DNA of 55,479 nt, from assembly GCA_011051715.1 (NCBI GenBank), contig DRKP01000010.1, forward strand, positions 1 to 55,479, written 5' to 3'. The notes under the pieces were generated by a model, which had not been told where the DNA came from, did not search any database, and saw nothing but the letters and a program-made list of their open reading frames with translations. Origin of the DNA: Sedimenticola thiotaurini (GTDB taxonomy: Bacteria > Pseudomonadota > Gammaproteobacteria > Chromatiales > Chromatiaceae). Positions 7,730 through 44,242 of this stretch are shown here, piece after piece (positions within the stretch are counted from its first letter, which is position 1; each line of letters starts with the position of its first letter). Position numbers and translations under genes: made by a program.

Positions 7730-7828
7730 GGCAGGGGTTCCGGGGTGGTTGCTGAGGCCGGGATTATACCGCCTGCCCGGCGCCGGGGACAGGCGGGGAC
7801 CCGTGCGCCGCCAGCGGCACGACGGCTA

Positions 7829-8299: not shown

Positions 8300-8363
8300 G
8301 CTCGGTGTTCTCCTTTGGTAATTGTGAATTGCGTGGTCATCGCCGGCAGCGGCACGCCCCGCA

Positions 8364-8384
8364 CTCCTCACTCCTCACTCCTCA
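8364..8384. repeat. Short heptanucleotide array (CTCCTCA)3
   Basis: Three perfect CTCCTCA copies, the same unit as the 4321 array. The last copy supplies the stop codon of mtaD (TCA at 8382-8384 on the plus strand), so the repeat has grown right up to, or into, the gene end. Confidence 0.9.
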
Positions 8385-9710: not shown

Positions 9711-9790
9711 CGGGATCGGGACGTCTTGTGCATGTCGATGACCCTTGGTCGTGGTGTACGATAGCCGAATTTGCCACGGGTGGACCACAG

Positions 9791-10870: not shown

Positions 10871-10872
10871 AC

Positions 10873-10897
10873 GCCGTTTTACCGGCCTTTTTTTCCA
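10873..10897 (+). terminator. Weak terminator-like sequence after mtnA
   Basis: A short GCCG/CGGC stem with a T-rich loop is followed by seven T residues directly downstream of the mtnA stop. The stem is only four to five base pairs, so this is a tentative terminator. Confidence 0.35.
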
Positions 10898-10916
10898 GGC
10901 GCTACCCCTCCCGATA

Positions 10917-10925
10917 TGGTATGAT
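10917..10925 (+). promoter_or_regulatory. Probable extended -10 element for gyrA
   Basis: TGGTATGAT forms an extended -10 (TGn plus TATGAT) 83 bp before the gyrA start. No convincing -35 hexamer is present 16-18 bp upstream, which is acceptable for extended -10 promoters. Transcription start not known. Confidence 0.45.
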
Positions 10926-11007
10926 GCACGGCTGGATTTGAGCTGTTTGTGCTGTCCTGCCGAAGGCGGCGGGATCGCTGTGCCGTATCGAGGACCCCCG
11001 AGCGCCT

Positions 11008-13575: not shown

Positions 13576-13698
13576 CGGCCCGGCGGGGGCTTCATCGGGA
13601 CGGGAGGGGATCGAGGGAACGGTGCCTCGGCAGGTCTCCCATCTCTCCCCGGTGAAACCAGGATCCAATCGACCAACGAAGTAGCGGAGAACCCAACG

Positions 13699-14778: not shown

Positions 14779-14814
14779 GCGGCCGGAAAGAAGCAATATT
14801 AAGGTTGAGAAATC

Positions 14815-15996
14815 ATGTACAAGATATTGACATTGAACAATATTTCCGTGGCCGGCCTGGACCGGCTACCGCGGGAGGAGTACGAGGTGGCGTCGGAGAT
14901 CGCCCATCCGGACGCGATCCTGCTGCGCTCCTACAAGATGCACGACATGGAGATTCCGGCAACGGTGAAGGCGATCGGCCGCGCCGGTGCCGGGGTCAAC
15001 AACATCCCGGTGGAGCGGGTGACCCGGCAGGGCATCGCCGTGTTCAACGCCCCGGGGGCCAACTCCAACGCGGTCAAGGAGCTGGTGGTTGCCGGCATGC
15101 TGATGGCGGCGCGCAACCTGGGGCCGGCCTGGGACTTCGCCCGCGGGCTCAGCGGCGACGACACCGAGATCTCGAAGGCGGTGGAACAGGGCAAGAAGCA
15201 GTTCGTCGGCTTCGAACTGCCGGGCCGCACCCTGGGCGTGATCGGTCTCGGCGCCATCGGTGTGCGGGTGGCCAACGCGGCCCGGGCCCTGGGCATGAAC
15301 GTGATCGGCTATGACCCCACCATCACGGTGCAGAGCGCCTGGCAGCTCTCCTCCGAGGTGGAGCAGGCCGTCAGCGTGGACGACCTGCTGGTGCGTTCGG
15401 ACTTCGTCACTTTCCATGTGCCGCTGGTGGATTCCACCCGCCACATGATCAACCAGGAGCGGCTGAAACTGATGAAGAAGGGGGCTGTGCTGCTCAACTT
15501 CGCCCGCTCCGGCATCATCGACGACGAGGCGGCGGTGGCGGCCCTGGACGAGGGCAGGCTGTACGCCTACATCTGCGATTTCCCCAGCAACCTGCTGAAG
15601 GACCATCCGCGCTGCGTCACCCTGCCGCACCTGGGCGCCTCCACCCGCGAGGCGGAGGAGAACTGCGCCATCATGGTGGCCGAGCAGGTGCGGGACTATC
15701 TGGAGAACGGCAACGTCAGGAACTCGGTCAACTTCCCGGCCATCCACCTGTCGCGCAACGGCGGCTTCCGCATCGCCGTGGTCAACTCCAACGTGCCCAA
15801 CATGGTGGGCCAGGTCTCCACCGACCTGGCCGAGGCCGGCCTCAACATCCTCGACATGGTGAACAAGTCCCGGGGTGACATCGCCGTCACCCTGATCGAC
15901 GTGGACAAGGAGCCCGGAGCCGGCACCATCGACCGGCTGGCGGCCATCGAGGGCGTGCTGTCGGTGCGCTGTCTGGGCTGCACCCGGGAGGCGTGA
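14815..15996 (+). CDS. serA: D-3-phosphoglycerate dehydrogenase with ACT domain
   Basis: SerA performs the first step of serine synthesis, oxidising 3-phosphoglycerate with NAD. The 393-aa protein has the NAD-binding GVIGLGAIGVRVANAA, catalytic Arg in NFARSGIIDD, and the His in LPHLGASTREAEENC. Residues about 318-390 form an ACT domain (NSNVPNMVGQVSTDLAEAGLNI), the site where serine inhibits many relatives. It is immediately after serC (36-bp gap) and overlaps no gene but is 8 bp from pheA, so serine synthesis is packed into the aromatic operon. In Pseudomonas serC is followed directly by pheA, so serA here is an addition. Confidence 0.97.
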   Translation: MYKILTLNNISVAGLDRLPREEYEVASEIAHPDAILLRSYKMHDMEIPATVKAIGRAGAGVNNIPVERVTRQGIAVFNAPGANSNAVKELVVAGMLMAARNLGPAWDFARGLSGDDTEISKAVEQGKKQFVGFELPGRTLGVIGLGAIGVRVANAARALGMNVIGYDPTITVQSAWQLSSEVEQAVSVDDLLVRSDFVTFHVPLVDSTRHMINQERLKLMKKGAVLLNFARSGIIDDEAAVAALDEGRLYAYICDFPSNLLKDHPRCVTLPHLGASTREAEENCAIMVAEQVRDYLENGNVRNSVNFPAIHLSRNGGFRIAVVNSNVPNMVGQVSTDLAEAGLNILDMVNKSRGDIAVTLIDVDKEPGAGTIDRLAAIEGVLSVRCLGCTREA

Positions 15997-30674: not shown

Positions 30675-31616
30675 TCATGCCGCCGGCCCCTCTGGGGGGG
30701 CGGCGGTGTAGAACGACTCCATGGTCTCGATGAAGCGCTGGGCCTGGGGCGACAGGTACTTGCCACGGCGCAGGACGATGCCATAGGTGCGTTTGGGGAA
30801 GTAGTCGTCCAGGGGGAAGGTGACCAGCTTCTCCCGGCCGGTGAGGCAGACGTCGGTGACGATGGAGATGCCCAGGCCCATCTCCACATATTTCTTGATC
30901 ACCTCCCAGCCGCCGGCCTCCAGGCCGCTCTTGAACTTGAGGTTGTGCTGCCGGAACACCAGGTCGACCATGCGCCAGGTGGTGAGGCTGGGTGGGGGCA
31001 GGATCAGGCCGTAGGGGGCGATGTCCTCGAGGGTCACGGCCTGTTTTTTCGCCAGGGGGTGGTCCAGGGGGACGATCAGGGCCGGGGAGTAGGTCACCAG
31101 CGGGCGGTAGACGATGTCGTCCGGCACCTCCATCATGGCGCCCACGGCGAAGTCCGCCTCGTCCGCCCGCAACCGCGACAGTCCGTCACGGCCGCCGGTG
31201 ACGTTGTGCAGCTTGATGCGGATCTTAGGATACTGTTCGGTGAACCGCCTCAGTGGCTCCGGCAGCACGTAGAGAATGGTCGACTCCCCCGCCGCGATAT
31301 TCAGCTCCCCCGATTCCAGCAGCCCCTGCTGGGCAGCAAAGGTCTCGTGCAGCTTGTCCATCCCCTCCACCAGCGGCTGGGCCAGCTTGTACAGGGCCTC
31401 GCCCTCCGGTGTCAGCCGGATCTTCGGCCCCCGCCGCTCGAACAGCACCGTCTCCAGCTCCCGCTCCAGCGCCTGGATCTGCAGCGACACCGTAGGCTGA
31501 CTCAGAAAGATCTTCTCCGCCGCCTCGCTGATGCTGCCGGTCCGCGCCGCATGACAGAAGGCGCGCAACTGCTTGAGGCGGTTCTGTTTGTAGTAGATGG
31601 GGGTGGGGGATGCCAT
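30675..31616 (-). CDS. LysR-family transcriptional regulator
   Basis: A 313-aa LysR-type regulator. The winged helix-turn-helix is at residues 15-75 (QLRAFCHAARTGSISEAAEKIFLSQPTVSLQIQALE) and the C-terminal two-lobed effector domain runs from about 100 to 300. It diverges from rnfB across 328 bp that contain an AT-rich dyad (31805-31825) of the T-N11-A kind, so it probably controls the rnf and oxidoreductase operon, and itself. The effector is not predictable; a redox, sulfur or carbon intermediate is plausible. It is not close to CbbR or to canonical CysB by eye. Confidence 0.9.
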   Translation of the reverse strand: MASPTPIYYKQNRLKQLRAFCHAARTGSISEAAEKIFLSQPTVSLQIQALERELETVLFERRGPKIRLTPEGEALYKLAQPLVEGMDKLHETFAAQQGLLESGELNIAAGESTILYVLPEPLRRFTEQYPKIRIKLHNVTGGRDGLSRLRADEADFAVGAMMEVPDDIVYRPLVTYSPALIVPLDHPLAKKQAVTLEDIAPYGLILPPPSLTTWRMVDLVFRQHNLKFKSGLEAGGWEVIKKYVEMGLGISIVTDVCLTGREKLVTFPLDDYFPKRTYGIVLRRGKYLSPQAQRFIETMESFYTAAPPEGPAA

Positions 31617-31658: not shown

Positions 31659-31701
31659 GAATTTATCAGAGTCCCCTTGTCTCCTATCCCCTAGTTCCTC
31701 T

Positions 31702-31799
31702 GCCCTCTGCCCTCGGCTCTCGGCTCTCGGCCCTCAGCCCTCGGCTCTCGGCCCTCAGCCCTCAGCCCTCGGCCCTCGGCCCTCGGCCCTCGGCCCTCG
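31702..31799. repeat. Fourteen-copy heptanucleotide array (GCCCTCG type)
   Basis: Exactly 98 bp of 14 heptamers, a mix of GCCCTCG, GCTCTCG, GCCCTCA and one GCCCTCT, ending with five identical GCCCTCG units. The array sits in the lysR-rnfB divergent region, just before the AT-rich dyad. Its sequence differs from the CTCCTCA arrays but shares the 7-bp period. The rest of 31617-31944 holds these repeats, the dyad and a short unassigned stretch. Confidence 0.96.
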
Positions 31800-31804
31800 A
31801 CCCT

Positions 31805-31944: not shown

Positions 31945-32838
31945 ATGGAAGAGATGTCCGTTCTCACCAGTATCGCGGTGTCGGCCGGCTTCATGGCGGT
32001 GCTGGGGCTTGTTCTCGCCGGCGTCCTGGTGATCGCCAACCGCAAGCTGTTCGTCTACGAGGATCCGCGCATCGACGAGGTGGAGGATCTGCTGCCCCAT
32101 GCCAACTGCGGTGCCTGCGGTACGCCGGGCTGCCGACCCTTCGCCGAGGGGCTGGTGCAGGGGGAGTACGAACCGGCCCAGTGCACCGTCAACTCCAGGG
32201 ACATGAACAAGATCATCGCCGACTATCTCGGAGTCGATCTTGGCAGGCAGGAGAAGCGGGTGGCACGCCTGGCCTGTGCCGGCGGCCGACACGTCGCCTA
32301 TATCCGGGCCAGCTACGATGGCCTGGAGTCGTGCCGGGCGGCGGCCCTGGTGGCGGGTGGCGGCAAGGGCTGCGCCTGGGGCTGCCTGGGCATGGGCGAC
32401 TGCGCCGATGTCTGCGATTTCGATGCCATCCGGATGGATCGCCACGGTCTGCCGGTGGTGGACGAGGCGCTGTGCACCGCCTGCAACGATTGCGTGGAGG
32501 TCTGTCCCAAGGAGCTGTTCTCCCTGCATCCGGTGAGCCACCGGCTGTTCGTCGCCTGCCGCAACCTGGAGAAGGGGGAGCAGGCGGAGGCGGAGTGCGA
32601 GGTGATCTGCACCGCCTGTGAGCGCTGCGCGGTCGACTCGCCCGAGGGGCTGATCGAGATCCGCAACAACCTGGCGGTGATCGACTACAGCAGGAACGAA
32701 CTGGCGTCGAAAGTGGCGATCGAGCGCTGTCCCACCGGCGCTATCGTCTGGTTCGACCGCAAGGGCGGCTACCAGGTGGGGAAGGATGCCAGGAAGATCA
32801 TCCGCAAGGAGCCGTTACCCCTGGCCCCGACCGCGTAG
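31945..32838 (+). CDS. rnfB: Rnf complex subunit B, long form
   Basis: RnfB takes electrons from ferredoxin and passes them to the Rnf membrane pump. The 297-aa protein is longer than E. coli RsxB (192 aa). An N-terminal membrane segment (8-32) leads to the first cluster site C55, C58, C63, C80. Two complete [4Fe-4S] sites follow: C143/C147/C153/C157 and C177/C180/C183/C187. The C-terminal pair seen in clostridial and Bacteroidetes long forms is eroded: C218, C222, C225, C228 lack the last ligand (S232) and only C262 of the final cluster remains. GGGGGC lies before ATG 31945. First gene of the operon; a REP-like element begins at its stop. Confidence 0.95.
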   Translation: MEEMSVLTSIAVSAGFMAVLGLVLAGVLVIANRKLFVYEDPRIDEVEDLLPHANCGACGTPGCRPFAEGLVQGEYEPAQCTVNSRDMNKIIADYLGVDLGRQEKRVARLACAGGRHVAYIRASYDGLESCRAAALVAGGGKGCAWGCLGMGDCADVCDFDAIRMDRHGLPVVDEALCTACNDCVEVCPKELFSLHPVSHRLFVACRNLEKGEQAEAECEVICTACERCAVDSPEGLIEIRNNLAVIDYSRNELASKVAIERCPTGAIVWFDRKGGYQVGKDARKIIRKEPLPLAPTA

Positions 32839-32920
32839 GAGCGCCGCAACACCGTTTCGCGGCGAGGGCGCTGCTCCTACGGTGGGACGGTGCTGTAGGA
32901 GCGCCGCCCCGGCGCGAAAC
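32835..32920. repeat. REP-like palindromes between rnfB and the oxidoreductase gene
   Basis: GTAGGAGCGCCGC occurs at 32835 and again at 32895, with an inverted partner (GCGCTGCTCCTAC) at 32868-32880. They match the GTAGGAGCGGC...GCCGCGAA type of repeat common in pseudomonads and relatives. The first copy includes the TAG stop of rnfB. A third member is at 40100-40125. Confidence 0.85.
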
Positions 32921-32958
32921 ACGAAGAAACAAACGACGAGTCCCAGGGAAAAGACGAC

Positions 32959-35900
32959 ATGTTCGGAAAGAAAGCACAGAAAGAGTTCCGCTATCCCGGC
33001 ATCCCCATGGCGATGGACGGCAACAGCGCCGTCATCCTGTGCGAGCGGGAGGCCTCGGACGCCGCCGGTGCCTATCCCATCACCCCCTCCACCCAGATGG
33101 GCGAATACTGGGCGGAAGAGGTGGCCCGGGGGCACATCAACGTGACCGGCAAGCCGCTGGTCTTCGTCGAGCCGGAATCGGAACACGCGGCGGCGGCGGT
33201 CACCGCCGGCATGTCCATGTCCGGCCTGCGCGCCACCAACTTCTCCTCCGCCCAGGGCGTCGCCTTCATGCACGAGTCCCTGTACGCGGCGGTGGGCAAG
33301 CGGCTGCCCTACGTGCTCAACATCGGCACCCGTGCCATCACCAAGGCCTCGCTCAATGTCCATTGCGGTCACGACGACTACCACTGCATCGACGACACCG
33401 GCTTCTTCCAGGTGTTCGCCAAGGACGCCCAGGGGGCGGCGGACCTGAACCTGATCGGACGCAAGATCGCCGAACTCAGCCTGACCCCGGCCGCGGTGGC
33501 CCAGGACGGCTTCCTCACCACCCACCTGATCGAACCCCTGCGGGTGCCGGAGCGGGAGCTGATCGAGGAGTTCTGCGGCCGCCCCGACGACATCATCGAC
33601 TGCCCGACGCCGGCCCAGCGCATGCTCTACGGCGACCGGCGCCGCCGGGTGCCCGAGGTGTGGGACGTGGACAACCCGATGCTGTCGGGGTCGGTGCAGA
33701 ACCAGGACGCCTACATGCAGGCGGTGGCGGCCCAGCGCCCCTATTTCTTCGAACACATCAGCGCCATCGCCGATCAGGTGATGGACGAGTACTACCGGCT
33801 GACCGGGCGCCGCTACAACCGCATCGGTCAGTACCGGATGGAGGACGCCGACTACGTCATCGTCGGCCAGGGCTCCATGATCGTGCAGGCGGAGGCGGTG
33901 GCCGACTACCTGCGCGACACCCGCAAGCTGAAGGTGGGGGTGGTCGACCTCACCATGTACCGACCCTTCCCGGGCGACCTGGTTGGCAAGGCGTTGCAAG
34001 GGAGAAAGGGGGTGGCGGTGCTGGAGCGCACCGACCAGCCCCTGGCCGAGGACCTGCCCCTGATCCGCGAGGTGCGGGCGGCCATCGGCAAGTGCGTGGA
34101 GAACGGCATGCAGCAGGACGGCGACCGTCCCTGGCCGGCCTACGCCAGTTACCGGGCGGACCAGGTTCCGCCCCTCTATTCCGGCTCCTACGGCCTGGGG
34201 TCCCGCGACCTGCAGCCGGAGGGGCTGATCGGCGCCATCGAGAACATGCTGCCGGACGGCGGCCGGCGCCGGTTCTTCTACCTGGGCGTCGATTTCGTGC
34301 GCGAACCGGACGACCCCAAGGCGGAGATCCGCCAGAACGAGCTGCTGGAGGCCTATCCCCAGGTGGCGGAGCTGGCCATCCACGGCAGCGAGAACCCGGA
34401 CCTGCTGCCCGCCGGCGCCATCACCGTGCGCATGCACTCGGTGGGTGGCTGGGGTGCCATCACCACAGGCAAGAACCTGGCCATGACCCTGTACGACCTG
34501 CTCGGTTTCGACATCCGTGCCAACCCCAAGTACGGGTCGGAGAAGAAGGGCCAGCCCACCACCTACTATCTGTCGGCGGCGCCGGAGCGGATCCGCCTCA
34601 ACTGCGAGTACCACTATGTCGACGTGGTGCTGTCGCCCGATCCCAACGTGTTCGGCCACTCCAATCCCCTCTATGGTCTGAAGGAGGGGGGCACCTTCAT
34701 CATCCAGAGCAGTCTGGAGTCGCCGGCAGAGGTGTGGGCCCAGATCCCCTCCCGCTACCAGAAGTACATCGTCGACCACGATATCCGCATCTTCTACGTC
34801 GACGGCTTCCGCATCGCGCGCGAGGAGGCCTCCAATCCGGAACTGCAGTTCCGCATGCAGGGCAACGCCTTCCAGGGCGCCTTCTTCGCCGCCTCGCCAT
34901 TGATGGAGAAGGCCGGTCTCGATGAGGAGGGTCTTTTTCAGGCGATCGAAAACCAGTTGCGCGACAAGTTCGGCTCCAAGGGCGAGCGGGTGGTGGCGGA
35001 CAATCTGCGGGTGGTGCGCCGCGGCTTCGACGAGATCACCGAGATCACCGACAAGCCGGTGGGGCTCAATCCGCAGATGGTGCGGAAGTCTCCCGACCTG
35101 CCGGTGATGCTGCGGCGGCTGCCGGTGGGGGACGGCCGGGTCTCCGATGTGCACAGGTTCTGGGAACAGACCGGCTCCTTCTATCTCAGCGGCCGCGGCT
35201 CCGACAACCTGGCCGACCCGTTCATGGCCACCAGCCTGATCCCGGCGGCCACCGGCGTCTACCGGGACATGACCCAGATCCGTTTCGAATATCCCAAGTT
35301 CGTCACCGAGAACTGCACCGCCTGCGGTGACTGCTACACCGCCTGCCCGGACAGCGCCATTCCGGGCCTGGTGAGCACCATCGCCCAGGTGTTCAACACC
35401 GCCATCGAACGTATCGAGACCCGCGGCACGCCGACCCTCTATCTGCGCCGGGAGAGCCGCCAGGTGGAGAAGCGGCTGCGCGCCCTGATCGACGAGGCCG
35501 GGGAGCAGGCGGTGGTGTCGAGCCTGATCGACCAGGCGGTGCTCGAGACCCTCGCCGCCTCGGAGCTGGAGGCGGAGAAGAAGGCCGCCCTGGAGCAGGA
35601 GTTCGGCCTGTTCATGGAGGCCCTGGGCGGGTTCGAGTTTTCCATCACCAAGCCCTATTACCTGAACCGGGAGAAGAAGAGCAAGGGCTCCGGCGGCCTC
35701 TTCTCCATCACCGTCAATCCCTACACCTGCAAGGGCTGCATGGAGTGCGTCGAGGTGTGTGACGACGGCGCCCTGGTGGCCGAACCGCAGGACCAGGCGG
35801 CGATCGAGCGGATGCGCCGGGACTGGGCGTTCTGGCTCGACCTGCCCACCACCGATCCCGACTTCATCCGCATCGACGACCTGGACGAGAAGATCGGCGC

Positions 35901-37917
35901 CCTGGAGACCCTGCTGCTGGACAAGGGCAACTACGAATCCATGGTCTCCGGTGACGGCGCCTGCCTGGGCTGTGGCGAGAAGACCGCCATCCACCTGTTC
36001 ACCTCCACGGTCACCGCCCTGATGCAGCCGCGGGTGAAGCGCCACCTGGCGGAGCTGGACGACCTGATCGGGCGGCTGGAGACCCATGTCCGCCTGAAGC
36101 TGGCCGAGTCCATCGATCTGACCAACCTGGAGGCGGTGAACGAGGCGGTGGAAAGCCATGAAGAGACCGATCTGACCCTGGCCGAGCTCTCCGCCACCCT
36201 GGACGAGGAGGCGCGGCCGGTGGATCAGCAGTGGCTCAAGCGGGTCACCCGGCTGCTGGAGAAACTGCGCCATCTGAAGTGGCTCTACACCGATGGCACC
36301 ACCCGCCAGGGCCGCGCCGCCATGGGCATCGTCAATGCCACCGGCTGTACTTCGGTGTGGGGCTCCACCTTCCCCTACAATCCCTATCCATTCCCCTGGA
36401 CCAGTCACCTGTTCCAGGACAGTCCATCGGTGGCGATGGGCATCTTCGAGGGCCACATGGCGAAGATGGCGGAGGGCTTCAAGGCGATCCGCCAGGCGAA
36501 GCTGGAGCTGGAGGGGAACTACTCGCCGGAGGAGCACGACGCCTTCTTCACCCACTTCGACTGGAGGCAGTTCAGCGACGAGGAGTGGCGGCTGTGCCCG
36601 CCGGTGGTCTCCATCGGCGGCGACGGGGCAATGTACGACATCGGTTTCCAGAACCTGTCCCGGGCCCTCGCATCGGGCATGCCGATCAAGGTGCTGGTGC
36701 TCGATACCCAGGTCTACTCCAACACCGGCGGCCAGGCCTGCACCTCCGGTTTCGTCGGCCAGGTGGCGGACATGAGCCCCTATGGCAAGGCGTGGAAGGG
36801 CAAGACCGAGATCCGCAAGGAGATGAGTCTGATCGGCATGGCCCACCGCACCAGTTTCGTGTTGCAGAGCTCCCAGGCCAATGTCACCCACATGCTGGAG
36901 GGCTTCATCGACGGCCTCAACAGCCGCCGGCCGGCCCTGTTCAACATCTACACCACCTGCCAGCCGGAGCACGGCGTGGGAGACGACGCCTCGGAGCACC
37001 AGGCGAAGATGGCGCTGGAGTCGCGCGCCTATCCCCTGTTCCGCTACGACCCGGACGCCGGCACCACCTTCGAGGAGTGCTGTGACCTGGAGGGCAACCC
37101 GGCGTTGGAGCGGGACTGGCCCGGCTATCGTCTCGACTACCTGGACGAGAACGGCAGGCCGGCCAGCCTGGAGCTGCCCATGACCTTCGCCGACTTCGCC
37201 TTCACCGAGGGCCGCTTCCGCAAGCACTTCCGCAAGGCGCCGCCGGAGACCTGGGATCAAGGTGATCCGGCCGGTACCGGTGCCGCAGGGGCGGTGGACA
37301 TGGTGCCGCTGCACGAGTTCCTTGAGCTGGACGAGGACGACCGCGACGGCCGCTATCCCTACATCTGGGCGCTGGACGGCAAGAACCGGCTGATGCGCAT
37401 CCTGGTGGCCCAGGAGATCGTCAAATCGTGCGAGGAGCGGCGCGACTTCTGGCGCCAGCTGAAGTCCCTCGCCGGCGTCGAGCACCGCTTCGATATGCAG
37501 GCGGTGGTGGAGCAGGCCAAGGCGGAGATGGCGCAGAAGCTGACCCACAGCCTGCTGGCCCTGGCCGGCGGTGGCGACATGGCCGCCCTCACCGATGCGG
37601 TGGCCGGTGGCGGCAATGGCGCCGGCGCCCCTTCCCAGGCCGGTGGCAACGGCGCCATGGCCGCCGACTACGAGCCGGTCTGGATCGAGACCCCCGAGTG
37701 CACCGCCTGTGACGAGTGCACCGAAATCAATCCCAACATCTTCGCCTACAACGAGGAGAAGAAGGCGGTTGTGGTCGATCCGAGGGGAGGGCCGTTCAAG
37801 GATATCGTCAAGGCGGCGGAGAAGTGCACCGCCGGCTGCCTGCATCCCGGGACGCCCTGGAATCCGAACGAGAAGGACCTGGACAAGCTGGTCAGGCGGG
37901 CCGAGAAATACCAGTGA
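32959..37917 (+). CDS. nifJ: Giant NifJ-like 2-oxoacid:ferredoxin oxidoreductase with fused ferredoxin domain
   Basis: A 1652-aa relative of pyruvate:ferredoxin (flavodoxin) oxidoreductase, which oxidises a 2-oxoacid with CoA to acyl-CoA, CO2 and low-potential electrons, or runs in reverse; NifJ is normally about 1170-1200 aa. Domain order: TPP pyrimidine domain (AYPITPSTQMGEYWAEE; RATNFSSAQG), domain II, gamma-type domain (MHSVGGWGAITTGKNLA), two [4Fe-4S] sites from C786 and C924, the TPP/cluster domain (CLGCGEK from C1002, NATGC at C1130, GDGAMYDIGF at 1221, TTCQPEHG), and a C-terminal ferredoxin-like domain from C1581 (CTACDECTEINPNIF ... CTAGCLHP). About 100 extra residues lie between C1005 and C1130. 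A Gly/Ala linker precedes the ferredoxin. Substrate is inferred, probably pyruvate. Confidence 0.92.
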   Translation: MFGKKAQKEFRYPGIPMAMDGNSAVILCEREASDAAGAYPITPSTQMGEYWAEEVARGHINVTGKPLVFVEPESEHAAAAVTAGMSMSGLRATNFSSAQGVAFMHESLYAAVGKRLPYVLNIGTRAITKASLNVHCGHDDYHCIDDTGFFQVFAKDAQGAADLNLIGRKIAELSLTPAAVAQDGFLTTHLIEPLRVPERELIEEFCGRPDDIIDCPTPAQRMLYGDRRRRVPEVWDVDNPMLSGSVQNQDAYMQAVAAQRPYFFEHISAIADQVMDEYYRLTGRRYNRIGQYRMEDADYVIVGQGSMIVQAEAVADYLRDTRKLKVGVVDLTMYRPFPGDLVGKALQGRKGVAVLERTDQPLAEDLPLIREVRAAIGKCVENGMQQDGDRPWPAYASYRADQVPPLYSGSYGLGSRDLQPEGLIGAIENMLPDGGRRRFFYLGVDFVREPDDPKAEIRQNELLEAYPQVAELAIHGSENPDLLPAGAITVRMHSVGGWGAITTGKNLAMTLYDLLGFDIRANPKYGSEKKGQPTTYYLSAAPERIRLNCEYHYVDVVLSPDPNVFGHSNPLYGLKEGGTFIIQSSLESPAEVWAQIPSRYQKYIVDHDIRIFYVDGFRIAREEASNPELQFRMQGNAFQGAFFAASPLMEKAGLDEEGLFQAIENQLRDKFGSKGERVVADNLRVVRRGFDEITEITDKPVGLNPQMVRKSPDLPVMLRRLPVGDGRVSDVHRFWEQTGSFYLSGRGSDNLADPFMATSLIPAATGVYRDMTQIRFEYPKFVTENCTACGDCYTACPDSAIPGLVSTIAQVFNTAIERIETRGTPTLYLRRESRQVEKRLRALIDEAGEQAVVSSLIDQAVLETLAASELEAEKKAALEQEFGLFMEALGGFEFSITKPYYLNREKKSKGSGGLFSITVNPYTCKGCMECVEVCDDGALVAEPQDQAAIERMRRDWAFWLDLPTTDPDFIRIDDLDEKIGALETLLLDKGNYESMVSGDGACLGCGEKTAIHLFTSTVTALMQPRVKRHLAELDDLIGRLETHVRLKLAESIDLTNLEAVNEAVESHEETDLTLAELSATLDEEARPVDQQWLKRVTRLLEKLRHLKWLYTDGTTRQGRAAMGIVNATGCTSVWGSTFPYNPYPFPWTSHLFQDSPSVAMGIFEGHMAKMAEGFKAIRQAKLELEGNYSPEEHDAFFTHFDWRQFSDEEWRLCPPVVSIGGDGAMYDIGFQNLSRALASGMPIKVLVLDTQVYSNTGGQACTSGFVGQVADMSPYGKAWKGKTEIRKEMSLIGMAHRTSFVLQSSQANVTHMLEGFIDGLNSRRPALFNIYTTCQPEHGVGDDASEHQAKMALESRAYPLFRYDPDAGTTFEECCDLEGNPALERDWPGYRLDYLDENGRPASLELPMTFADFAFTEGRFRKHFRKAPPETWDQGDPAGTGAAGAVDMVPLHEFLELDEDDRDGRYPYIWALDGKNRLMRILVAQEIVKSCEERRDFWRQLKSLAGVEHRFDMQAVVEQAKAEMAQKLTHSLLALAGGGDMAALTDAVAGGGNGAGAPSQAGGNGAMAADYEPVWIETPECTACDECTEINPNIFAYNEEKKAVVVDPRGGPFKDIVKAAEKCTAGCLHPGTPWNPNEKDLDKLVRRAEKYQ

Positions 37918-38058
37918 CCGGGGATCCGGGGCAGGGCAGGATTGGCCGGGATTTTATGCCGATGAACCGATATGCTTGGCCCCGGGATACGGCCGGTTGC
38001 ACAGGCCCTTTCCCGACGACTACCGAACATGACGAAAAATCTTGAGGAGCGATACGAT

Positions 38059-38559
38059 ATGGCAACAGTGAAACTGAAGGGCAATCCGGTCACCACCAGC
38101 GGTGAGCTGCCGGAGGTGGGTTCCCAGGCACCGGACTTCAGCCTGCCGGACAAGAGCCTGCAGAACGTGAGTCTGGGCGATTTCGCCGGCAAGAAGCGGC
38201 TGCTCAACATCGTGCCCAGTCTGGACACCCCCACCTGCGCCACCTCCACCAGGAAGTTCAACCAGTCCTTCGCCGGCCGTGACGATGCCGTGGCGCTGGT
38301 CATCTCTGCCGATCTGCCCTTCGCCCAGGGCCGCTTCTGCGAGAGCGAAGGTCTGGAGAACGTGGTCACGCTGTCGCTTATGCGGAGCAAGCAGTTCGCC
38401 AAGGACTACGGTGTGCTGCTGGTGGACGGCCCCCTGGCCGGCCTCACCGCCCGCGCGGTGGTGGTGATCGACGGGGACGGCAAGGTGGTCTACACCCAGC
38501 TGGTGGAGGAGATCACCGAGGAGCCTGACTACGACGCCGCCCTGAAGGCGCTTGGCTGA
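38059..38559 (+). CDS. tpx: Thiol peroxidase (atypical 2-Cys peroxiredoxin)
   Basis: The 166-aa protein reduces organic and hydrogen peroxides using thioredoxin. It matches Tpx: [16 protein letters not shown] places the peroxidatic cysteine at C60, and [11 protein letters not shown] the resolving cysteine at C94. ATG 38059 has GAGGAG eight bases upstream; earlier ATGs at 38029 and 37972 lack support. It is inserted between the oxygen-sensitive oxidoreductase and rnfC, which makes protection of the iron-sulfur enzymes a reasonable role. A large inverted repeat separates it from rnfC. Confidence 0.95.
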
Positions 38560-38572
38560 GGAGTCGGAGGGT

Positions 38573-38688
38573 GGGCGTTGGCGGCACTGCACCGGGCCTT
38601 CGGGTGTCGGCCCGGCGGGCCCGGCACTCCGGAACCCGGGTTGGTGGCGGGCCTCCACAGGCGGCCCGGTGCAGCGCCGCCAACGCCC
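38573..38688. repeat. Large inverted repeat between tpx and rnfC
   Basis: Two 26-bp arms (38573-38598 and 38663-38688) are reverse complements with a single mismatch, around a 64-bp GC-rich core that itself contains shorter inverted repeats. The structure sits in the middle of the operon. There is no T tract and no open reading frame, so it may be an RNA processing or attenuation site, or a small nonautonomous element. Confidence 0.85.
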
Positions 38689-38717
38689 TGTAAGCGGTTG
38701 AACTCTGGGGGGACAGC

Positions 38718-40070
38718 ATGGGCTTTCTGAATCTGTTCCGGCGGCACAAGACCTTCCCCCACGGTATCCATCCGGACGATCACAAGGAGCAGACCGCCGG
38801 TCTGCCGATCCGCCGGCTCCCCTTCGCACCGAAGATGTATGTGCCCCTGGCCCAGCACCGGGGCGCCCCGGCGAAACCGCTGGTGCATCCGGGACAGGAG
38901 GTGGTGCGCGGCGAGCCCATCGCCGAGGCGGGCGGCTTCGTCTCGGTGCCGATGCACGCGCCGGTGACCGGGGTGGTGCGGGCGCTGGACCGGCTGGTCC
39001 CCAGCGCCCAGGGGCCGAAGACCCCGGCCATCGTGATCGAGACCTACGCCGCCGACACACAGCGTGTGGGGTGGGAGATGCCGCGCGATATCGATCAGAT
39101 GACGCCGCAGGAGCTGGTGCAGGCGGTGCAGGAGGCCGGCATGGTGGGCCTCGGTGGTGCCGCCTTTCCCAGCCATGTCAAGCTGTTGCCGCCGGAGGGG
39201 CGGTCGATCGGGACGGTGGTGGTCAACGGTTGTGAGTGCGAGCCCTACCTGACCTGCGACCATCGGGTGATGCTGGAACAGACCGACCGGTTGATCCGCG
39301 GTATCCGCATGGTGATGAAGGCGACCGGCGCCGGGCGGGCCATCATCGGGGTGGAGGACAACAAGCTCGACGCGGTGGGGGTGATCCGGGAGAAGCTGAA
39401 GGACCAGCCCGGTATCGATGTCGAGGCGGTGGAGACCAAGTATCCCCAGGGGGCGGAGAAGATGCTGATCACCAGCCTGCTGGGGAAGGAGGTGCCCTCG
39501 GGCGGCATTCCGGCGGATATCGGGGTGGCGGTCTACAACGTCGGCACCCTGGCCCAGCTGGGCGACCTGGTTCCCCGCGGGCGTGGTCTGATCGAGCGGG
39601 TGGTGACCGTCTCCGGGCCCGGCGTGGCCCGTCCCGGCAACTACCTGGTGCCGATTGGCACGCCACTGGGGTTCCTGATGCAGCAGGTGGGTTCCAGCTC
39701 CGAGGCCAACGAGCTGATCATGGGCGGCCCGATGATGGGCATGGCGGTGGCCTCGCTGGAGGTGCCGGTGACCAAGGGGGTGTCGGGCGTGGTCGTGTTC
39801 GAACCGGATGCCCCCGACCTGCAGCGGCGGCCCATCCATCCCTGCATCAAGTGCGGCGAGTGTCTCAACGCCTGCCCGATCCATCTCAATCCCTCCCTGC
39901 TGGGCGAGCTGGCGGCGGCACGGGAATACCGGGTGATGGAGGAGAGTTATCACCTAAACGACTGCTTCGAGTGCGGCTGCTGCAGCTACGTCTGCCCGTC
40001 CAACATCCCGCTGACCCAGTATTTCCGCATCGCCAAGTCGATCAACCGCGAGACGAGGACGGCGGCGTGA
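38718..40070 (+). CDS. rnfC: Rnf complex subunit C
   Basis: RnfC is the soluble NADH-oxidoreductase subunit. The 450-aa product has the nucleotide/flavin signature GLGGAAFPSHVKL with VVNGCECEPYLTCDHRVM, and two [4Fe-4S] sites beginning at C376 (CIKCGECLNACP) and C416 (CFECGCCSYVCP). It is short, like clostridial and Bacteroidetes RnfC, and lacks the long alanine-rich tail of E. coli RsxC. GGGGGGA precedes ATG 38718. It precedes rnfD by 180 bp that hold a REP-like element. Confidence 0.97.
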   Translation: MGFLNLFRRHKTFPHGIHPDDHKEQTAGLPIRRLPFAPKMYVPLAQHRGAPAKPLVHPGQEVVRGEPIAEAGGFVSVPMHAPVTGVVRALDRLVPSAQGPKTPAIVIETYAADTQRVGWEMPRDIDQMTPQELVQAVQEAGMVGLGGAAFPSHVKLLPPEGRSIGTVVVNGCECEPYLTCDHRVMLEQTDRLIRGIRMVMKATGAGRAIIGVEDNKLDAVGVIREKLKDQPGIDVEAVETKYPQGAEKMLITSLLGKEVPSGGIPADIGVAVYNVGTLAQLGDLVPRGRGLIERVVTVSGPGVARPGNYLVPIGTPLGFLMQQVGSSSEANELIMGGPMMGMAVASLEVPVTKGVSGVVVFEPDAPDLQRRPIHPCIKCGECLNACPIHLNPSLLGELAAAREYRVMEESYHLNDCFECGCCSYVCPSNIPLTQYFRIAKSINRETRTAA

Positions 40071-40099
40071 ACCGCCTGCTTGTAAAGGACCCCTGGCCG

Positions 40100-40125
40100 G
40101 TAGGAGCGGCGCCCCCGCCGCGAAC
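40100..40125. repeat. REP-like palindrome between rnfC and rnfD
   Basis: GTAGGAGCGGCGC followed by CCCCGCCGCGAAC, the same family as the elements at 32835-32920. It lies in the 180-bp rnfC-rnfD gap. Confidence 0.8.
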
Positions 40126-40250
40126 GGCACGGGCAGAGGCACAGCCGTGGCTGGTCTTTGGCCGCCGGGAATGCTGTCACCGTCATCGACCGGCGATCGC
40201 GGAAGATGGGGGTCCCTCTGTTCGCCCGCGGTTGTGGTTCTGAAAAGACG

Positions 40251-41300
40251 ATGAAAACGAAACACAGACCGGTGGAGATCCGCACCTCGCCCCACGTGAA
40301 GAAGGCGATCTCGGTGGAGCAGATCATGCGCAACGTGGTCTACGCGCTGCTGCCGGTCTGCGCCTGGTCGGTGTGGCAGTTCGGTATCAGCGCGCTCGCG
40401 CTGATCCTGGTGACCCTGGTCAGCTGCCTCGCCACCGAGAGCTTCTTCTGCTGGATGTCACGGCGGGACAACACGGTCCGGGACTTCAGCGTGGTGATCA
40501 CCGGCCTCCTGCTGGCCCTCACCCTGCCGCCCGGGTTTCCCCTGTGGATGGCGGCGGTGGCCGGCTTCATCGCCGTCGGCCTCGGCAAGTCCCTGTTCGG
40601 TGGCCTTGGTTTCAATGTCATGAATCCGGCCCTGGTGGGCCGCGCCTTCGTGCAGGCGGCCTTCCCGGTGGCCATCACCACCTGGACACCGTCGTTCCTG
40701 CCGGGGCGTTTCAGCGAGTTCATCCCCTCCACCCTGGCGCTGCCGTTCATGTCCCCGGTGGAGACCAGGGAGTGGGCGCTGGAGCGGGCGGTGGACGGTT
40801 TCACCGGGGCCACCCCGCTGGCGCTGCACAAGTTCGAACAGATCACCACGAGCACCTCCGACCTGCTGCTGGGGACGGTGGCGGGATCCGCCGGGGAGAC
40901 CGCGGCCCTGCTGATCTTCGTCTGCGGCCTCTATCTGATCGCCCGGAGGATGATGGACTGGCGCATCTGCGCCGGCGTCTTTGCCGGCGTGGTGCTGGTG
41001 TCGCTGCCGTTGTGGCTGTTCGATCCCGGCCACTATCCGTCGCCCTGGTTCATGCTGCTCTCCGGCGGCCTGATGCTGGGGGCCATGTTCATGGCCACCG
41101 ACATGGTGGCCTCGCCGGTGACGTCCCTGGGGATCTGGATCTACGGCGGGGTGATCGGCGCCCTGACCGTGGTCATCCGCCTGTTCGGCGGTCTCACCGA
41201 GGGGGTGATGTACGCCATCCTGCTGGCCAACGCCCTGTCGCCGCTGATCGCCTCGGTGACCCAGCCCCGGGTCTACGGTGTGGGCAGGGGGAAGGGCTGA
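40251..41300 (+). CDS. rnfD: Rnf complex subunit D
   Basis: A multispanning membrane subunit of 349 aa, homologous to NqrB and thought to take part in ion translocation. The covalent FMN site is the Thr in DGFTGATPLA (T188). Hydrophobic segments are clear at 31-60, 85-112, and through the C-terminal half. ATG 40251 (MKTKHRPVEIRTSPHV) gives the family N-terminus; longer starts run into repeat-bearing DNA. The stop overlaps the rnfG start (TGATG). Confidence 0.96.
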   Translation: MKTKHRPVEIRTSPHVKKAISVEQIMRNVVYALLPVCAWSVWQFGISALALILVTLVSCLATESFFCWMSRRDNTVRDFSVVITGLLLALTLPPGFPLWMAAVAGFIAVGLGKSLFGGLGFNVMNPALVGRAFVQAAFPVAITTWTPSFLPGRFSEFIPSTLALPFMSPVETREWALERAVDGFTGATPLALHKFEQITTSTSDLLLGTVAGSAGETAALLIFVCGLYLIARRMMDWRICAGVFAGVVLVSLPLWLFDPGHYPSPWFMLLSGGLMLGAMFMATDMVASPVTSLGIWIYGGVIGALTVVIRLFGGLTEGVMYAILLANALSPLIASVTQPRVYGVGRGKG

Positions 41301-41986
41301 TGGCCGGGGCGCAACCGCAGGCCCCGTCCCAGCCCCGCACCCCGGGGGGCGCCATGCTGCGCACCCTGGGGGGCATCGCCATGCTCTCCGGGCTGCTGGT
41401 GGTACTGGTCTACCACTGGACCCGCCCGATCATTGCGGAGAACAAGCGCATCGCCATCGAGAAGGCGATCTTCCAGGTGGTGCCGGGGGCGGTGACGCGG
41501 AAGAACTTCGTCCTCGGTCCGGAGGGGCTGTTCCCGGGCGATGCCGGCAAGGCGAAGGGTGACCAGGTCTATGCCGCCTACGATCGGGATGGACGCCTGA
41601 AAGGGGTGGCCCTGGAGGCGGCCGCCACCGGCTACCAGGACGTGATCCGGATCCTCTACGGCTACGACCCGGGCTGCCAGTGCGTCACCGGCATCCGGGT
41701 GCTGAAGATGGCGGAGACGCCGGGGCTGGGAGACAAGATCGCCAGGGATCCGGATTTCCTGGCCAACTTCGAGGCCCTGGACGGACGGGTGAACGCCGCC
41801 GGCGACGGACTGGAGCACGCCATCGTGACGGTGAAGCACGGCACCAAGAGCCAACCCTGGCAGATCGATGCCATCTCCGGCGCCACCATCTCGTCCAAGG
41901 CCGTCGGCCGCATGATCGATGCCAGCGGTCAGCGCATGTTCCCGTTGATCCTGCGCTACCGCGACGGCTTCGAGCGGAGAGACTAG
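41300..41986 (+). CDS. rnfG: Rnf complex subunit G
   Basis: The 228-aa subunit has one N-terminal membrane helix (about 22-42, GGIAMLSGLLVVLVYHW) and a periplasmic FMN-binding domain with the flavinylation motif SGATISS (T196), modified by ApbE. A CQC pair at 126-128 is unusual but may be incidental. ATG 41300 overlaps the rnfD stop by one base with GGGGGAAGGG upstream. No apbE gene is visible in the window, so it must be encoded elsewhere. Confidence 0.95.
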   Translation: MAGAQPQAPSQPRTPGGAMLRTLGGIAMLSGLLVVLVYHWTRPIIAENKRIAIEKAIFQVVPGAVTRKNFVLGPEGLFPGDAGKAKGDQVYAAYDRDGRLKGVALEAAATGYQDVIRILYGYDPGCQCVTGIRVLKMAETPGLGDKIARDPDFLANFEALDGRVNAAGDGLEHAIVTVKHGTKSQPWQIDAISGATISSKAVGRMIDASGQRMFPLILRYRDGFERRD

Positions 41987-42006
41987 GGATACCGAGGTAC
42001 CAGTCA

Positions 42007-42669
42007 ATGGCTACGCTACCCAATCGACAGGAGCAGGTCACCCTCGACACCTTCCTGCGCGGTATCTGGGAGGAGAACCCGGTGTTCGTCATGCTGCTGG
42101 GGATGTGCCCTGTGCTGGCGGTGACCAACTCCACCATCAATGCCATCGCCATGGGGCTGGCCACCCTGTTCGTGCTGGTCGCCTCGGGCGCCCTGGTGTC
42201 GCTGCTGCGCAAGTTGATTCCGAAGCAGGTGCGCATCGCCACCTACATCATCATCATCGCCACCTTCGTCACCATGGTGGACTACGTGATCCAGGCGATC
42301 AGCCTGGACCTGTACAATGCCCTCGGCGCCTTCATCCAGCTGATCGTGGTCAACTGCGTGATCCTGGGACGGGCCGAGGCCTACGCCTCCAAGCAGCGGG
42401 TCGGGCCGGCGGTGGTCAACGCCCTGGGCATGGGTACCGGTTTCACCATCGCGCTGCTCTGCCTGGGGACGGTGCGGGAGCTGCTCGGCAACGGCACCAT
42501 CCTCGGCATCCAGGTGTTCAGCAGCAACTTCGAGCCCTGGGTGGTGATGGTGCTGCCGCCCGGGGGATTCTTCGTGCTCGGCGCCTGGCTGCTGCTGTTC
42601 GAGTGGCTGAAGCAGCGCAAGGCGGAGCCCGCCGGTGCGGCGGAAGGAGCGACCGTCCATGAGTCCTGA
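42007..42669 (+). CDS. rnfE: Rnf complex subunit E
   Basis: A membrane subunit of 220 aa, paired with RnfA and homologous to NqrD. Cysteines C34 (LLGMCPVLAVT) and C117 (VVNCVILGRAEA) are at the positions that, with two from RnfA, ligate the membrane-embedded [2Fe-2S] cluster in Nqr and Rnf. Six hydrophobic segments are evident. It overlaps the rnfA start by 11 bp. Confidence 0.97.
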   Translation: MATLPNRQEQVTLDTFLRGIWEENPVFVMLLGMCPVLAVTNSTINAIAMGLATLFVLVASGALVSLLRKLIPKQVRIATYIIIIATFVTMVDYVIQAISLDLYNALGAFIQLIVVNCVILGRAEAYASKQRVGPAVVNALGMGTGFTIALLCLGTVRELLGNGTILGIQVFSSNFEPWVVMVLPPGGFFVLGAWLLLFEWLKQRKAEPAGAAEGATVHES

Positions 42670-43249
42670 TTCCCTCGGCTTCATCTTCCTCAACGCCGCC
42701 GTCATCAACAATTTCGTGCTGGCCCTGTTTCTCGGCATCTGCCCCTTTCTCGGCGTCTCGGCCAAGAAGGAGACGGCCTGGAACATGGGGCTGGCGACCA
42801 TGTTCGTGATGCTGGTCAGCTCGCTCTGCGCCTACGGGATCAATCTGCTGCTGGTGAGGTTCGACATCCAGTATCTGCGGCTGATCTCCTACATCGCGGT
42901 GATCGCCTCCGCGGTGCAGCTGGTGGAAATGGCGATGAAGAAGTTCAGCCCGGCCCTGTTCCGCGCGCTGGGCATCTTCCTGCCCCTGATCACCACCAAC
43001 TGCGCCATCCTCGGCCTGGCCCTGTTCCAGACCTTCCGCGAGTACGATTTCCTGCAGAGTCTGGCCTTCAGCAGCGGCGCCGGCGTCGGCTTCACTCTGG
43101 CGCTGATGCTGATGGCGGGGCTGCGCGAACGGCTGGCCCTGGCCCGGGTCCCGAGCGTCAGCCAGGGTGCCGCCATGAGCCTGATGCTGGCCGGCCTGCT
43201 GTCACTGGCGTTCATGGGCTTCGCCGGCCTGGGGGGCAGCCATGCTTGA
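42659..43249 (+). CDS. rnfA: Rnf complex subunit A
   Basis: The 196-aa membrane subunit, homologous to NqrE, has six hydrophobic segments in inverted topology to RnfE. Cysteines C28 (FLGICPFLGVS) and C115 (ITTNCAILGLAL) complete the proposed intramembrane [2Fe-2S] cluster. AAGGAG lies nine bases before ATG 42659. The following small gene overlaps its last 8 bases. Confidence 0.97.
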   Translation: MSPDSLGFIFLNAAVINNFVLALFLGICPFLGVSAKKETAWNMGLATMFVMLVSSLCAYGINLLLVRFDIQYLRLISYIAVIASAVQLVEMAMKKFSPALFRALGIFLPLITTNCAILGLALFQTFREYDFLQSLAFSSGAGVGFTLALMLMAGLRERLALARVPSVSQGAAMSLMLAGLLSLAFMGFAGLGGSHA

Positions 43250-43421
43250 CTTCGTCATCGCGGCGGCGGTGATCATGGCCATGCTGGGGGGCTGGATCCT
43301 GGTGCAACAGATGGCGCGGCGGTTCGCCCGGCGCCATCCGGAGTTCGGGCCCTACACCGAGAAGCGGGGCTGCGGCGGCAACTGCAGCTGCGCGGGAGGG
43401 GAGAGTTGCCAGAAGAAGTAG
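43242..43421 (+). CDS. Small Cys-rich membrane protein, NqrM-like in character
   Basis: A 59-residue protein too short for usual gene tables: one membrane helix (3-21, DFVIAAAVIMAMLGGWILV), a basic turn, and a C-terminal tail with four cysteines C44, C48, C50 and C56 (CGGNCSCAGGESC). Start ATG 43242 overlaps rnfA by 8 bp; the end overlaps ppsR by 16 bp. The layout resembles NqrM (DUF539), the one-helix Cys-rich protein needed to insert iron in the NqrD/NqrE site. Function here is inference. It belongs to the rnf operon by overlap. Confidence 0.75.
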   Translation: MLDFVIAAAVIMAMLGGWILVQQMARRFARRHPEFGPYTEKRGCGGNCSCAGGESCQKK

Positions 43422-44242
43422 GCCGGAAACCGGAGGGGCGGTTGCGGCGCACCGTCTTTTTTGTCTCCGAGAGCACCGGCATCACCGCCGAGACCCTGGG
43501 CCAGAGCCTGCTCTCCCAGTTCGCCCATTCGGTCGAGTTCAAGACCGTCTACATGCCCTTCATCAACACCATGGAGCGGGCCCGGGAGCTGGCCGAGCGG
43601 CTGAAGCAGCTGAACGAGCTCGAAGGGGTGCGTCCGATCGTCTTCGCCACCATGCCGGAGGAGGATATCCGCGCGGTGCTGAGCAGCTCACCCTGCCTCT
43701 ACATCGAGCTGTTCGACACCTTCATCGGTCCACTGGCGAAGGAGCTGGGGGTGGGGCCCAGCGGCAAGCGCGGCCTGACCCACGGCTTCAGCAACGGCGA
43801 CAGCTACGAACACCGGATGAACATCATCAACTTCGCCATGACCAATGACGACGGGGCGCGACTGGACAAGTTCGACCAGGCCGACGTGATCCTGATCGGC
43901 GTCTCCCGCTCCGGCAAGACCCCCACCTGTCTCTATCTGGCGATCCACTTCGACATCAAGGCGGCCAACTATCCCCTGACCGAGGAGGACTTCGAGCGCG
44001 GCCGGCTGCCGCAGGTGCTGATGAACAACCGGGACAAGCTGATCGCCCTGACCATCGATCCCCTGCGGCTGCACCGGATCCGCGAGGAGCGCCGCCCCGG
44101 CAGCCGCTACGCCTCCCTCAACAGCTGCCGGCGTGAGGTGCAGGAGGCGGAGGAGATGTTCCGCCGGCTGGGCCTGAAGGTGCTCGACACCACCTCCCAC
44201 TCCATCGAGGAGATCTCGTCGCTGATCATGAAGGCGATCTGA
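43406..44242 (+). CDS. ppsR: PEP synthase regulatory protein (kinase / pyrophosphorylase)
   Basis: PpsR inactivates PEP synthase by ADP-dependent phosphorylation and reactivates it by phosphorolysis, and so controls pyruvate to PEP flux. The 278-aa product has the P-loop GVSRSGKT (165-172), FFVSESTGITAE near the N-terminus, and RREERR-like REERRPGSRYASL near the C-terminus. The TTG at 43406 is taken as start, since GGAGG lies six bases upstream and no ATG fits; it overlaps the preceding small gene by 16 bp. Its place in the operon links the oxidoreductase product to gluconeogenesis. Confidence 0.95.
   Translation: MPEEVGRKPEGRLRRTVFFVSESTGITAETLGQSLLSQFAHSVEFKTVYMPFINTMERARELAERLKQLNELEGVRPIVFATMPEEDIRAVLSSSPCLYIELFDTFIGPLAKELGVGPSGKRGLTHGFSNGDSYEHRMNIINFAMTNDDGARLDKFDQADVILIGVSRSGKTPTCLYLAIHFDIKAANYPLTEEDFERGRLPQVLMNNRDKLIALTIDPLRLHRIREERRPGSRYASLNSCRREVQEAEEMFRRLGLKVLDTTSHSIEEISSLIMKAI

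Follow-up and report, generated by a model that had tools for sequence, protein, structure and literature searches.

An rnf operon enclosing a large pyruvate:ferredoxin oxidoreductase with a fused ferredoxin in Sedimenticola thiotaurini and its relatives

The source of low-potential electrons for ferredoxin-dependent carboxylation in sulfur-oxidizing and respiring proteobacteria is unsettled, and a locus of Sedimenticola thiotaurini raises the question of whether an oxidoreductase may draw them from an Rnf complex of its own. The DNA analyzed (the window; 55,479 nucleotides) is contig DRKP01000010.1 (C10) of a 3.39-Mb genome in 194 contigs. Its plus strand carries, in order, rnfB, a gene for a 1652-amino-acid (aa) pyruvate:ferredoxin oxidoreductase (PFOR), tpx, rnfC, rnfD, rnfG, rnfE, rnfA, a gene for a Cys-rich peptide, and ppsR (Table 1). 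Gene order and residue conservation make it probable that the cluster encodes a dedicated Rnf, in which RnfB is permanently paired with PFOR and electrons pass directly between them via a ferredoxin tethered to the enzyme. The arrangement suggests a private low-potential electron line that links central carbon metabolism and the membrane.

Conservation of the rnfB-PFOR pairing

A survey of genomes for rnfB beside the oxidoreductase, as proposed in the initial annotation of this DNA, found that the pairing is not sporadic. The order sample comprised 195 genomes, including that of S. thiotaurini, and 125 of these match the PFOR query at 1e-100. The enzyme of the window (PFOR1) is carried by 109: 108 were recognized by identity (64 to 100%) among the matches listed, and six genomes left unsorted by identity were checked separately, yielding a fragment in one more (G162). 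In 100 of the 109 carriers, PFOR1 is preceded on its own strand by rnfB (median gap, 124 bp; largest, 906 bp). Its absence from the remaining nine is due to contig breaks, as eight of the PFOR matches lack the N-terminal end and the ninth contig (G085) ends 160 bp upstream. The only five rnfB genes of the same type without an adjoining PFOR all fall in five of these nine genomes. The rnfB-PFOR pairing is therefore close to obligatory. In a phylum sample of 398 genomes, 44 match at 1e-100, and besides S. thiotaurini only two (G464 and G558) hold the same enzyme (67 to 68% identity), with both rnfB and rnfC adjoining it.

Gene order was followed further in the best 80 loci listed (the named loci), which are biased towards close relatives. 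Here, rnfB precedes PFOR in 75 of the 76 loci that extend 400 bp or more upstream, and all 72 testable loci have rnfC after it. Where 5.5 kb or more is available, rnfCDGEA follows in 58 of 59 loci; the order is also present in two more distant genomes (L164 and L165). L148 is the one exception in both incomplete counts: the 472 bp upstream contain no rnfB, and neither rnfE nor rnfA was found there. The named loci include records labeled Sedimenticola, Chromatiaceae, Thiodiazotropha, Ectothiorhodospira, Rhodocyclaceae, Gallionellaceae, and Shewanella atlantica; the labels Acidobacteria, Opitutaceae, Kiritimatiellae, and Hyphomicrobiales on some metagenome-assembled genomes may be binning errors.

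RnfB contains 20 Cys residues and an N-terminal hydrophobic stretch. All 20 Cys are kept in every aligned RnfB of the same type (72 to 75 sequences) and in each of the 10 RnfB sequences from the twin operon described below.

The PFOR and its tethered ferredoxin

PFOR combines domains I, II, III, V, and VI in one chain, in the usual order, and aligns to the solved structures 6cin, 1b0p, and 7plm. Conservation was assessed in 76 full-length sequences: that of the window and those of all named loci except L106 and four incomplete ones (75 of 80). The 12 Cys residues of the three [4Fe-4S] clusters, the four Cys residues of the fused ferredoxin, GGDG, T42, E75, and R125 are invariant in all 76, as is SNTGGQ in the 30 sequences checked for it (alignment A1). 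T42, E75, and R125 align to T31, E64, and R114 of a solved PFOR (numbering from the alignment), residues that presumably have a role in substrate handling. The match to the pyruvate equivalog model TIGR02176 scores 387.6 bits against a cut-off of 911.35, and by its sequence the protein is a divergent subfamily rather than a standard NifJ. Two further features appear in the alignment: domain V is ~80 residues longer than in 6cin through an insert between its two clusters, and domain VI has an insert of ~100 residues relative to solved PFORs.

The C-terminal ferredoxin resembles ferredoxin I (1dax/1dfd/1fxr; E value, 4e-6) and is preceded by a low-complexity linker of 17 to 64 aa across the 76 sequences. 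The linker consists of 75% (median) G, A, P, S, T, Q, and N, versus 41% in the whole window protein. An AlphaFold model of residues 482 to 1652 (predicted template modeling score, 0.43) was used for secondary structure and linker confidence only, and its predicted local distance difference scores are low across the linker. A flexible linker ahead of an invariant ferredoxin supports an electron channel, in which the ferredoxin would act as a tethered mobile carrier.

A minus-strand open frame of 1676 aa (positions 32815 to 37845) lies antisense to PFOR and is taken as a high-GC artifact.

A twin operon with a degenerate PFOR

A second type of locus has the order korA-korB-p837-rnfB-PFOR2-rnfCDGEA. 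PFOR2 paralogues share 29 to 32% identity with PFOR and are mostly 1510 to 1580 aa long. Among the matches listed, an RnfB2 gene (46 to 54% identity to the RnfB of the window) lies upstream of PFOR2 in 28 of 28 genomes. Twin loci were inspected in 26 of these 28; korA-korB-p837-rnfB-PFOR2 is complete in 18, and a contig edge interrupts three (L171, L180, and L188).

All eight domain V Cys residues are kept in the seven PFOR2 sequences compared. These sequences have lost GDG, SNTGGQ, and the residues at positions T31 and E64, and a single proximal Cys is left, in L167. Similarly, p837 keeps the four ferredoxin Cys residues (5/5) and has lost the TPP (thiamine pyrophosphate) motifs and the proximal Cys residues. 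The motifs of KorA and KorB are kept (5/5). On these residues, PFOR2 and p837 are probably catalytically dead PFOR parts that serve as a scaffold for electron passage between KorAB and RnfB, a dead PFOR retained as a wire being the simplest interpretation. A tentative generalization, which the evidence leaves short of probable, is that 2-oxoacid:ferredoxin oxidoreductases may be wired into Rnf via RnfB with the PFOR body as the connector, PFOR2 and p837 acting only as the wire between KorAB and RnfB. In this scheme, the PFOR of the twin operon would have been duplicated and lost catalysis, its wire parts being the domain V clusters and the tethered ferredoxin. If this is true, the two carboxylations that need low-potential electrons, yielding pyruvate and 2-oxoglutarate, would each draw on an electron supply of their own, driven by the ion gradient.

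The surroundings of PFOR2 vary. In several loci, sucC (succinyl-CoA ligase beta) lies downstream. In one genus (L190 to L192, L194, and L197), no rnfC was seen adjoining PFOR2, and rnfD lies ~13 kb past PFOR2 in four genomes and on another contig in the fifth (G026). At L169 (G017), PFOR2 is flanked by similar genes of ~200 aa and by a PDDEXK_2 transposase-family gene (7617 to 9154 and 13950 to 14810). In S. thiotaurini, the twin set is split across contigs C163 (L153), C8 (L154), and C11 (L157). Finding only three RnfD in this genome raised the suspicion that one Rnf base is shared by two RnfB modules. The idea was dropped because the first 129 bases of C8 match rnfC and C11 carries, by similarity, rnfC, rnfD, rnfE, and rnfA. 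The complete genomes G132, G008, and G039 have three RnfD each. A separate Rnf set, which starts with rnfA and has rnfG and rnfE at its end, lies on contig C76 of S. thiotaurini.

A third PFOR, of 1666 to 1710 aa, ends in the same kind of C-terminal CxxCxxC motif (L159, 3827 to 11898; L163, 2488 to 10428; L199 to L212). In 14 of 16 loci, the next protein resembles the one in L159; of the exceptions, a contig edge truncates L206, and no partner lies in reach in L205. The partners in L159 and L163 pass NCBIfam PRK12779, a fusion of GltD-like and dihydroorotate dehydrogenase B-like parts, and are presumably NfnBA-like. PFORs with a fused ferredoxin thus tend to occur beside a partner dedicated to electron handling.

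Proposed electron path

Pyruvate synthesis from acetyl-CoA requires low-potential electrons, and Rnf, by spending an ion gradient, can supply these from NADH. In the proposed path, electrons would enter from NAD(H) at RnfC, cross the membrane part RnfDGEA, and reach RnfB, whose 20 Cys residues are enough for up to five [4Fe-4S] clusters. From RnfB, they would pass through the tethered one-cluster ferredoxin and both domain V clusters to the proximal cluster and, finally, the TPP site. In the synthetic mode, the ion gradient would lift NADH electrons to the potential for carboxylating acetyl-CoA to pyruvate, which PEP (phosphoenolpyruvate) synthase, encoded by ppsA in the cluster of some relatives and switched by PpsR, would convert to PEP. 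In the reverse mode, the oxidation of pyruvate would drive ion pumping and yield NADH. Physical contact, the direction of flow, and the bypassing of the free ferredoxin pool are the parts of this scheme that we infer. The tethered ferredoxin, together with a twin whose dead PFOR parts keep the electron-carrying Cys residues, fits a physical channel.

Direction of electron flow

The initial annotation had linked pyruvate formation to PEP through the neighboring ppsR, and this link stands in part. In 16 of the 80 named loci, ppsA directly follows rnfA, and ppsR is next in 10 of those 16; in the window, only ppsR adjoins and the PEP synthase genes sit elsewhere in the genome. The ppsA query came from L093, whose protein is a PEP synthase by NCBIfam. 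The matches are on the same strand, start within ~0.65 kb of rnfA, and share at least 64% identity with the query. Fourteen fall among the 50 named loci that extend 9 kb or more downstream, and L116 and L127, which have less than 9 kb, bring the count to 16. Matches in L119 (25% identity) and L126 (26%) were rejected as spurious. L172 likewise has ppsA after rnfA. PEP synthase is a gluconeogenic enzyme; with ppsA and ppsR in the cluster, the route from acetyl-CoA through pyruvate to PEP is therefore somewhat favored over the oxidative direction.

In the oxidative direction, PFOR would oxidize pyruvate, derived for instance from glycogen reserves when oxygen is low, and the tethered ferredoxin would feed RnfB to yield NADH and an ion gradient. 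In fermenters, Rnf does run from ferredoxin to NAD. The same direction has been proposed for the rnf2 operon of the Solemya velum gill symbiont, in the available part of whose description pyruvate is suggested as the electron donor (PMC4287430). This alternative is rather unlikely: the ppsA and ppsR genes in the cluster of some relatives argue otherwise, and S. thiotaurini has aceE of pyruvate dehydrogenase.

A role of PFOR1 in replacing the glyoxylate shunt was considered and rejected. No match to isocitrate lyase was found in the S. thiotaurini genome, but 67 of the 109 PFOR1 carriers have both, so that the two are not mutually exclusive. Across the 195 genomes, G162 included, both are present in 67, PFOR1 only in 42, the lyase only in 26, and neither in 60; before G162 was added, the counts were 66, 42, 27, and 60 (odds ratio, 3.5, uncorrected for relatedness).

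Contact, substrate, and points against the proposal

PFOR and Rnf might also be co-inherited neighbors that communicate through a pool of soluble ferredoxin used by both, with the fused domain only speeding exchange with that pool. Co-regulation alone can conserve gene order. The distance matrices of PFOR and the Rnf subunits correlate (r = 0.68 to 0.88 over 46 loci), which is also expected from common descent, and the correlation carries little weight because it is confounded in this way. Nevertheless, at PFOR1, PFOR2, and more distant loci the PFOR gene splits the Rnf genes, between rnfB and rnfC, and the electron-carrying Cys residues retained in the dead PFOR2 and p837 are hard to explain if these proteins have no structural role. 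Neighborhood without contact is accordingly rather improbable. A 2-oxoacid other than pyruvate as the substrate would suit a family score far below the pyruvate equivalog cut-off and is very improbable, since all 76 sequences have the same residues at the positions aligned to T31, E64, and R114 and the PEP synthase context suits pyruvate.

Several observations nevertheless weigh against a dedicated Rnf that supplies pyruvate synthesis through the tethered ferredoxin. With gaps of 120 to 180 bp among the first genes, a single transcript is no more than possible, and the poor AlphaFold model displays no docking. The substrate is not assured by the family model because the TIGR02176 score is so far under the cut-off. 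The occurrence of ppsA in a minority of loci, the lack of conservation of direct ppsR adjacency, the co-occurrence of PFOR1 with isocitrate lyase, which it does not replace across the order, and the opposite direction suggested for the Solemya operon all bear on the direction. Concerning the twin, an Arg is still at the R114 position in four of the seven PFOR2 sequences, KorAB and p837 were not found in the retrieved stretches of L169, L187, L196, and L198, and none was found in the 1.5 kb upstream at L189. As some PFOR2 loci are without KorAB, an adaptor role is not universal.

Other features of the cluster

Gene assignments rest on Pfam and NCBIfam profile matches, the 59-aa peptide being the exception, without any match. 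These matches confirm the gene order, domains, and single strand of the initial annotation, whereas the overlapping ends that it reported occur only in the second half of the cluster. From rnfD onward, the spacings are -1, +20, -11, -8, and -16 bp; the gaps rnfB-PFOR, PFOR-tpx, tpx-rnfC, and rnfC-rnfD are 120 to 180 bp, and two of them carry REP-like (repetitive extragenic palindromic-like) repeats. The REP-like motif GTAGGAGCG occurs four times in the window (0.45 expected), always in gaps of the rnf/PFOR operon. A sigma-70 promoter scan gave no match, and terminator-like sites were no commoner than in shuffled sequence.

Table 1. Features of the rnf/PFOR cluster (positions in the window)
Feature	Position	Strand	Evidence or remark
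LysR-family (CysB-like) regulator, divergent	30675..31616	-	Pfam HTH_1 and LysR_substrate
rnfB, polyferredoxin subunit	31945..32838	+	Pfam FeS and Fer4; TIGR01944, 86.6 bits (cut-off, 68.7)
Three REP-like GTAGGAGCG motifs, rnfB-PFOR gap	32835..32908	no strand	First overlaps rnfB stop
PFOR, 1652 aa	32959..37917	+	Pfam POR_N, PFOR_II, POR, 4Fe-4S, TPP_enzyme_C, Fer4_13
PFOR domain V, two CxxCxxCxxxC [4Fe-4S] motifs	35314..35760	+	Residues 786-796 and 924-934, insert between; Cys 76/76
PFOR low-complexity linker	37567..37677	+	Residues 1537-1573
PFOR fused one-cluster ferredoxin	37678..37914	+	Pfam Fer4_13; Cys 1581, 1584, 1587, 1623
tpx, thiol peroxidase	38059..38559	+	PRK00522, 239.9 (cut-off, 123)
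rnfC	38718..40070	+	TIGR01945, 503 (cut-off, 246)
Fourth REP-like GTAGGAGCG motif, rnfC-rnfD gap	40100-40113		
rnfD	40251..41300	+	TIGR01946, 302 (cut-off, 207); ATG at 40251
rnfG	41300..41986	+	FMN_bind; SGAT present in sequence
rnfE	42007..42669	+	TIGR01948, 239 (cut-off, 213)
rnfA	42659..43249	+	TIGR01943, 234.2 (cut-off, 229.3)
Cys-rich peptide, 59 aa	43242..43421	+	Hydrophobic N-terminal half, Cys-rich tail
ppsR, PEP synthase regulatory kinase/phosphorylase	43406..44242	+	PF03618, 248.6 (cut-off, 23.5)

The Rnf complex is complete at the locus, with A, B, C, D, and E above the TIGR subfamily cut-offs and G recognized via FMN_bind. The order, B-PFOR-(tpx)-CDGEA, is not the canonical proteobacterial rnfABCDGE. 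Although tpx lies within the operon of the window, as initially annotated, it was found in only seven of 59 named loci and is a lineage-specific passenger outside the conserved unit. Its start is likely at 38059 and not 37972 because the model match starts at residue 30. PpsR also matches PRK05339 (268; cut-off, 225) and scores 349.7 with NF049928, just below the cut-off of 350.

The 59-aa peptide is kept after rnfA in 37 of 59 named loci (tblastn). It was considered as NqrM, and no Pfam match was found at E values up to 1; PF04400 (NqrM) was not found in the S. thiotaurini genome but was found in three of 28 relatives. A metal-insertion factor for RnfA and RnfE would be a guess.

The divergent LysR-family gene upstream, just beyond the stretch covered by the initial annotation, is a candidate regulator of the cluster, and a homologue is divergent in 20 of the 60 named loci that extend 2.6 kb or more upstream. 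Between this gene and rnfB lies a tandem array of CCTCGGC (period, 7; 15.4 copies; 31697 to 31804), in a region that is likely the control region.

Comparison with known systems

The closest known case is the Solemya velum gill symbiont, in which PFOR genes lie between rnfB2 and rnfC2 (PMC4287430); its rnf2 locus (L106) has the same order as the window, with PFOR between rnfB and rnfC. In its available part, that account makes no mention of a fused ferredoxin, a broad spread, ppsA or ppsR in the cluster, or a twin. At L106, the matches to rnfB (9337 to 9961) and PFOR (10001 to 14912) are each broken in two, with coordinates in different frames, and the PFOR break falls at the ferredoxin linker; the breaks may be sequencing errors or decay.

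The Rnf complexes of Acetobacterium woodii and of Bacteroidetes/Chlorobi have the same six subunits, a polyferredoxin RnfB, and the CDGEA order, and the Bacteroidetes/Chlorobi gene order is BCDGEA. Unlike the window, the rnf gene orders in the available part of PMC4014512 have no PFOR inside the operon. The PFOR of Desulfovibrio africanus (1b0p) shares domains I to III, V, and VI and the three [4Fe-4S] clusters, whereas the enzyme of the window has in addition a linker-fused ferredoxin, inserts in domains V and VI, and its location in rnf. Ferredoxin I (1dax, 1dfd, and 1fxr) is a one-cluster protein of the same family as the fused ferredoxin.

In tubeworm symbionts, the reductive tricarboxylic acid (rTCA) cycle cluster (Hdr-Flx, pntAB, and rnf) likewise places an oxoacid:ferredoxin oxidoreductase beside electron transfer complexes (PMC6315080 and PMC11636981). 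Their korABCD genes are interspersed with Flx-Hdr genes and a dimeric korAB lies elsewhere in the genome. Rnf is near rTCA genes, and a PFOR-like gene drops in expression with korAB; the available parts of both accounts contain no description of a dead PFOR scaffold. RNF and the PFOR and 2-oxoglutarate:ferredoxin oxidoreductase (OGOR) isoforms are counted in PMC11636981 among complexes with function or direction unknown. Elsewhere, the Allochromatium vinosum genome is reported to have three rnf clusters, whose role is described as entirely unclear (PMC3368242), and PFOR has been invoked in polyhydroxyalkanoate mobilization in Kentron (PMC6593406).

No published description of the ferredoxin fusion, of how widely the pairing occurs, or of the dead twin was found in the literature available, which covers subscription journals thinly. 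A PFOR bound to its own Rnf, with a dead twin beside KorAB, would give a concrete answer to the question of low-potential electrons, namely, reverse Rnf acting through a tethered ferredoxin. If true, this would revise the view that Rnf meets metabolism only via a shared soluble ferredoxin pool. The case is a variant of PFOR-Rnf coupling and no new category: the gene order was known once before, and its near-universality and the catalytically dead twin look new.

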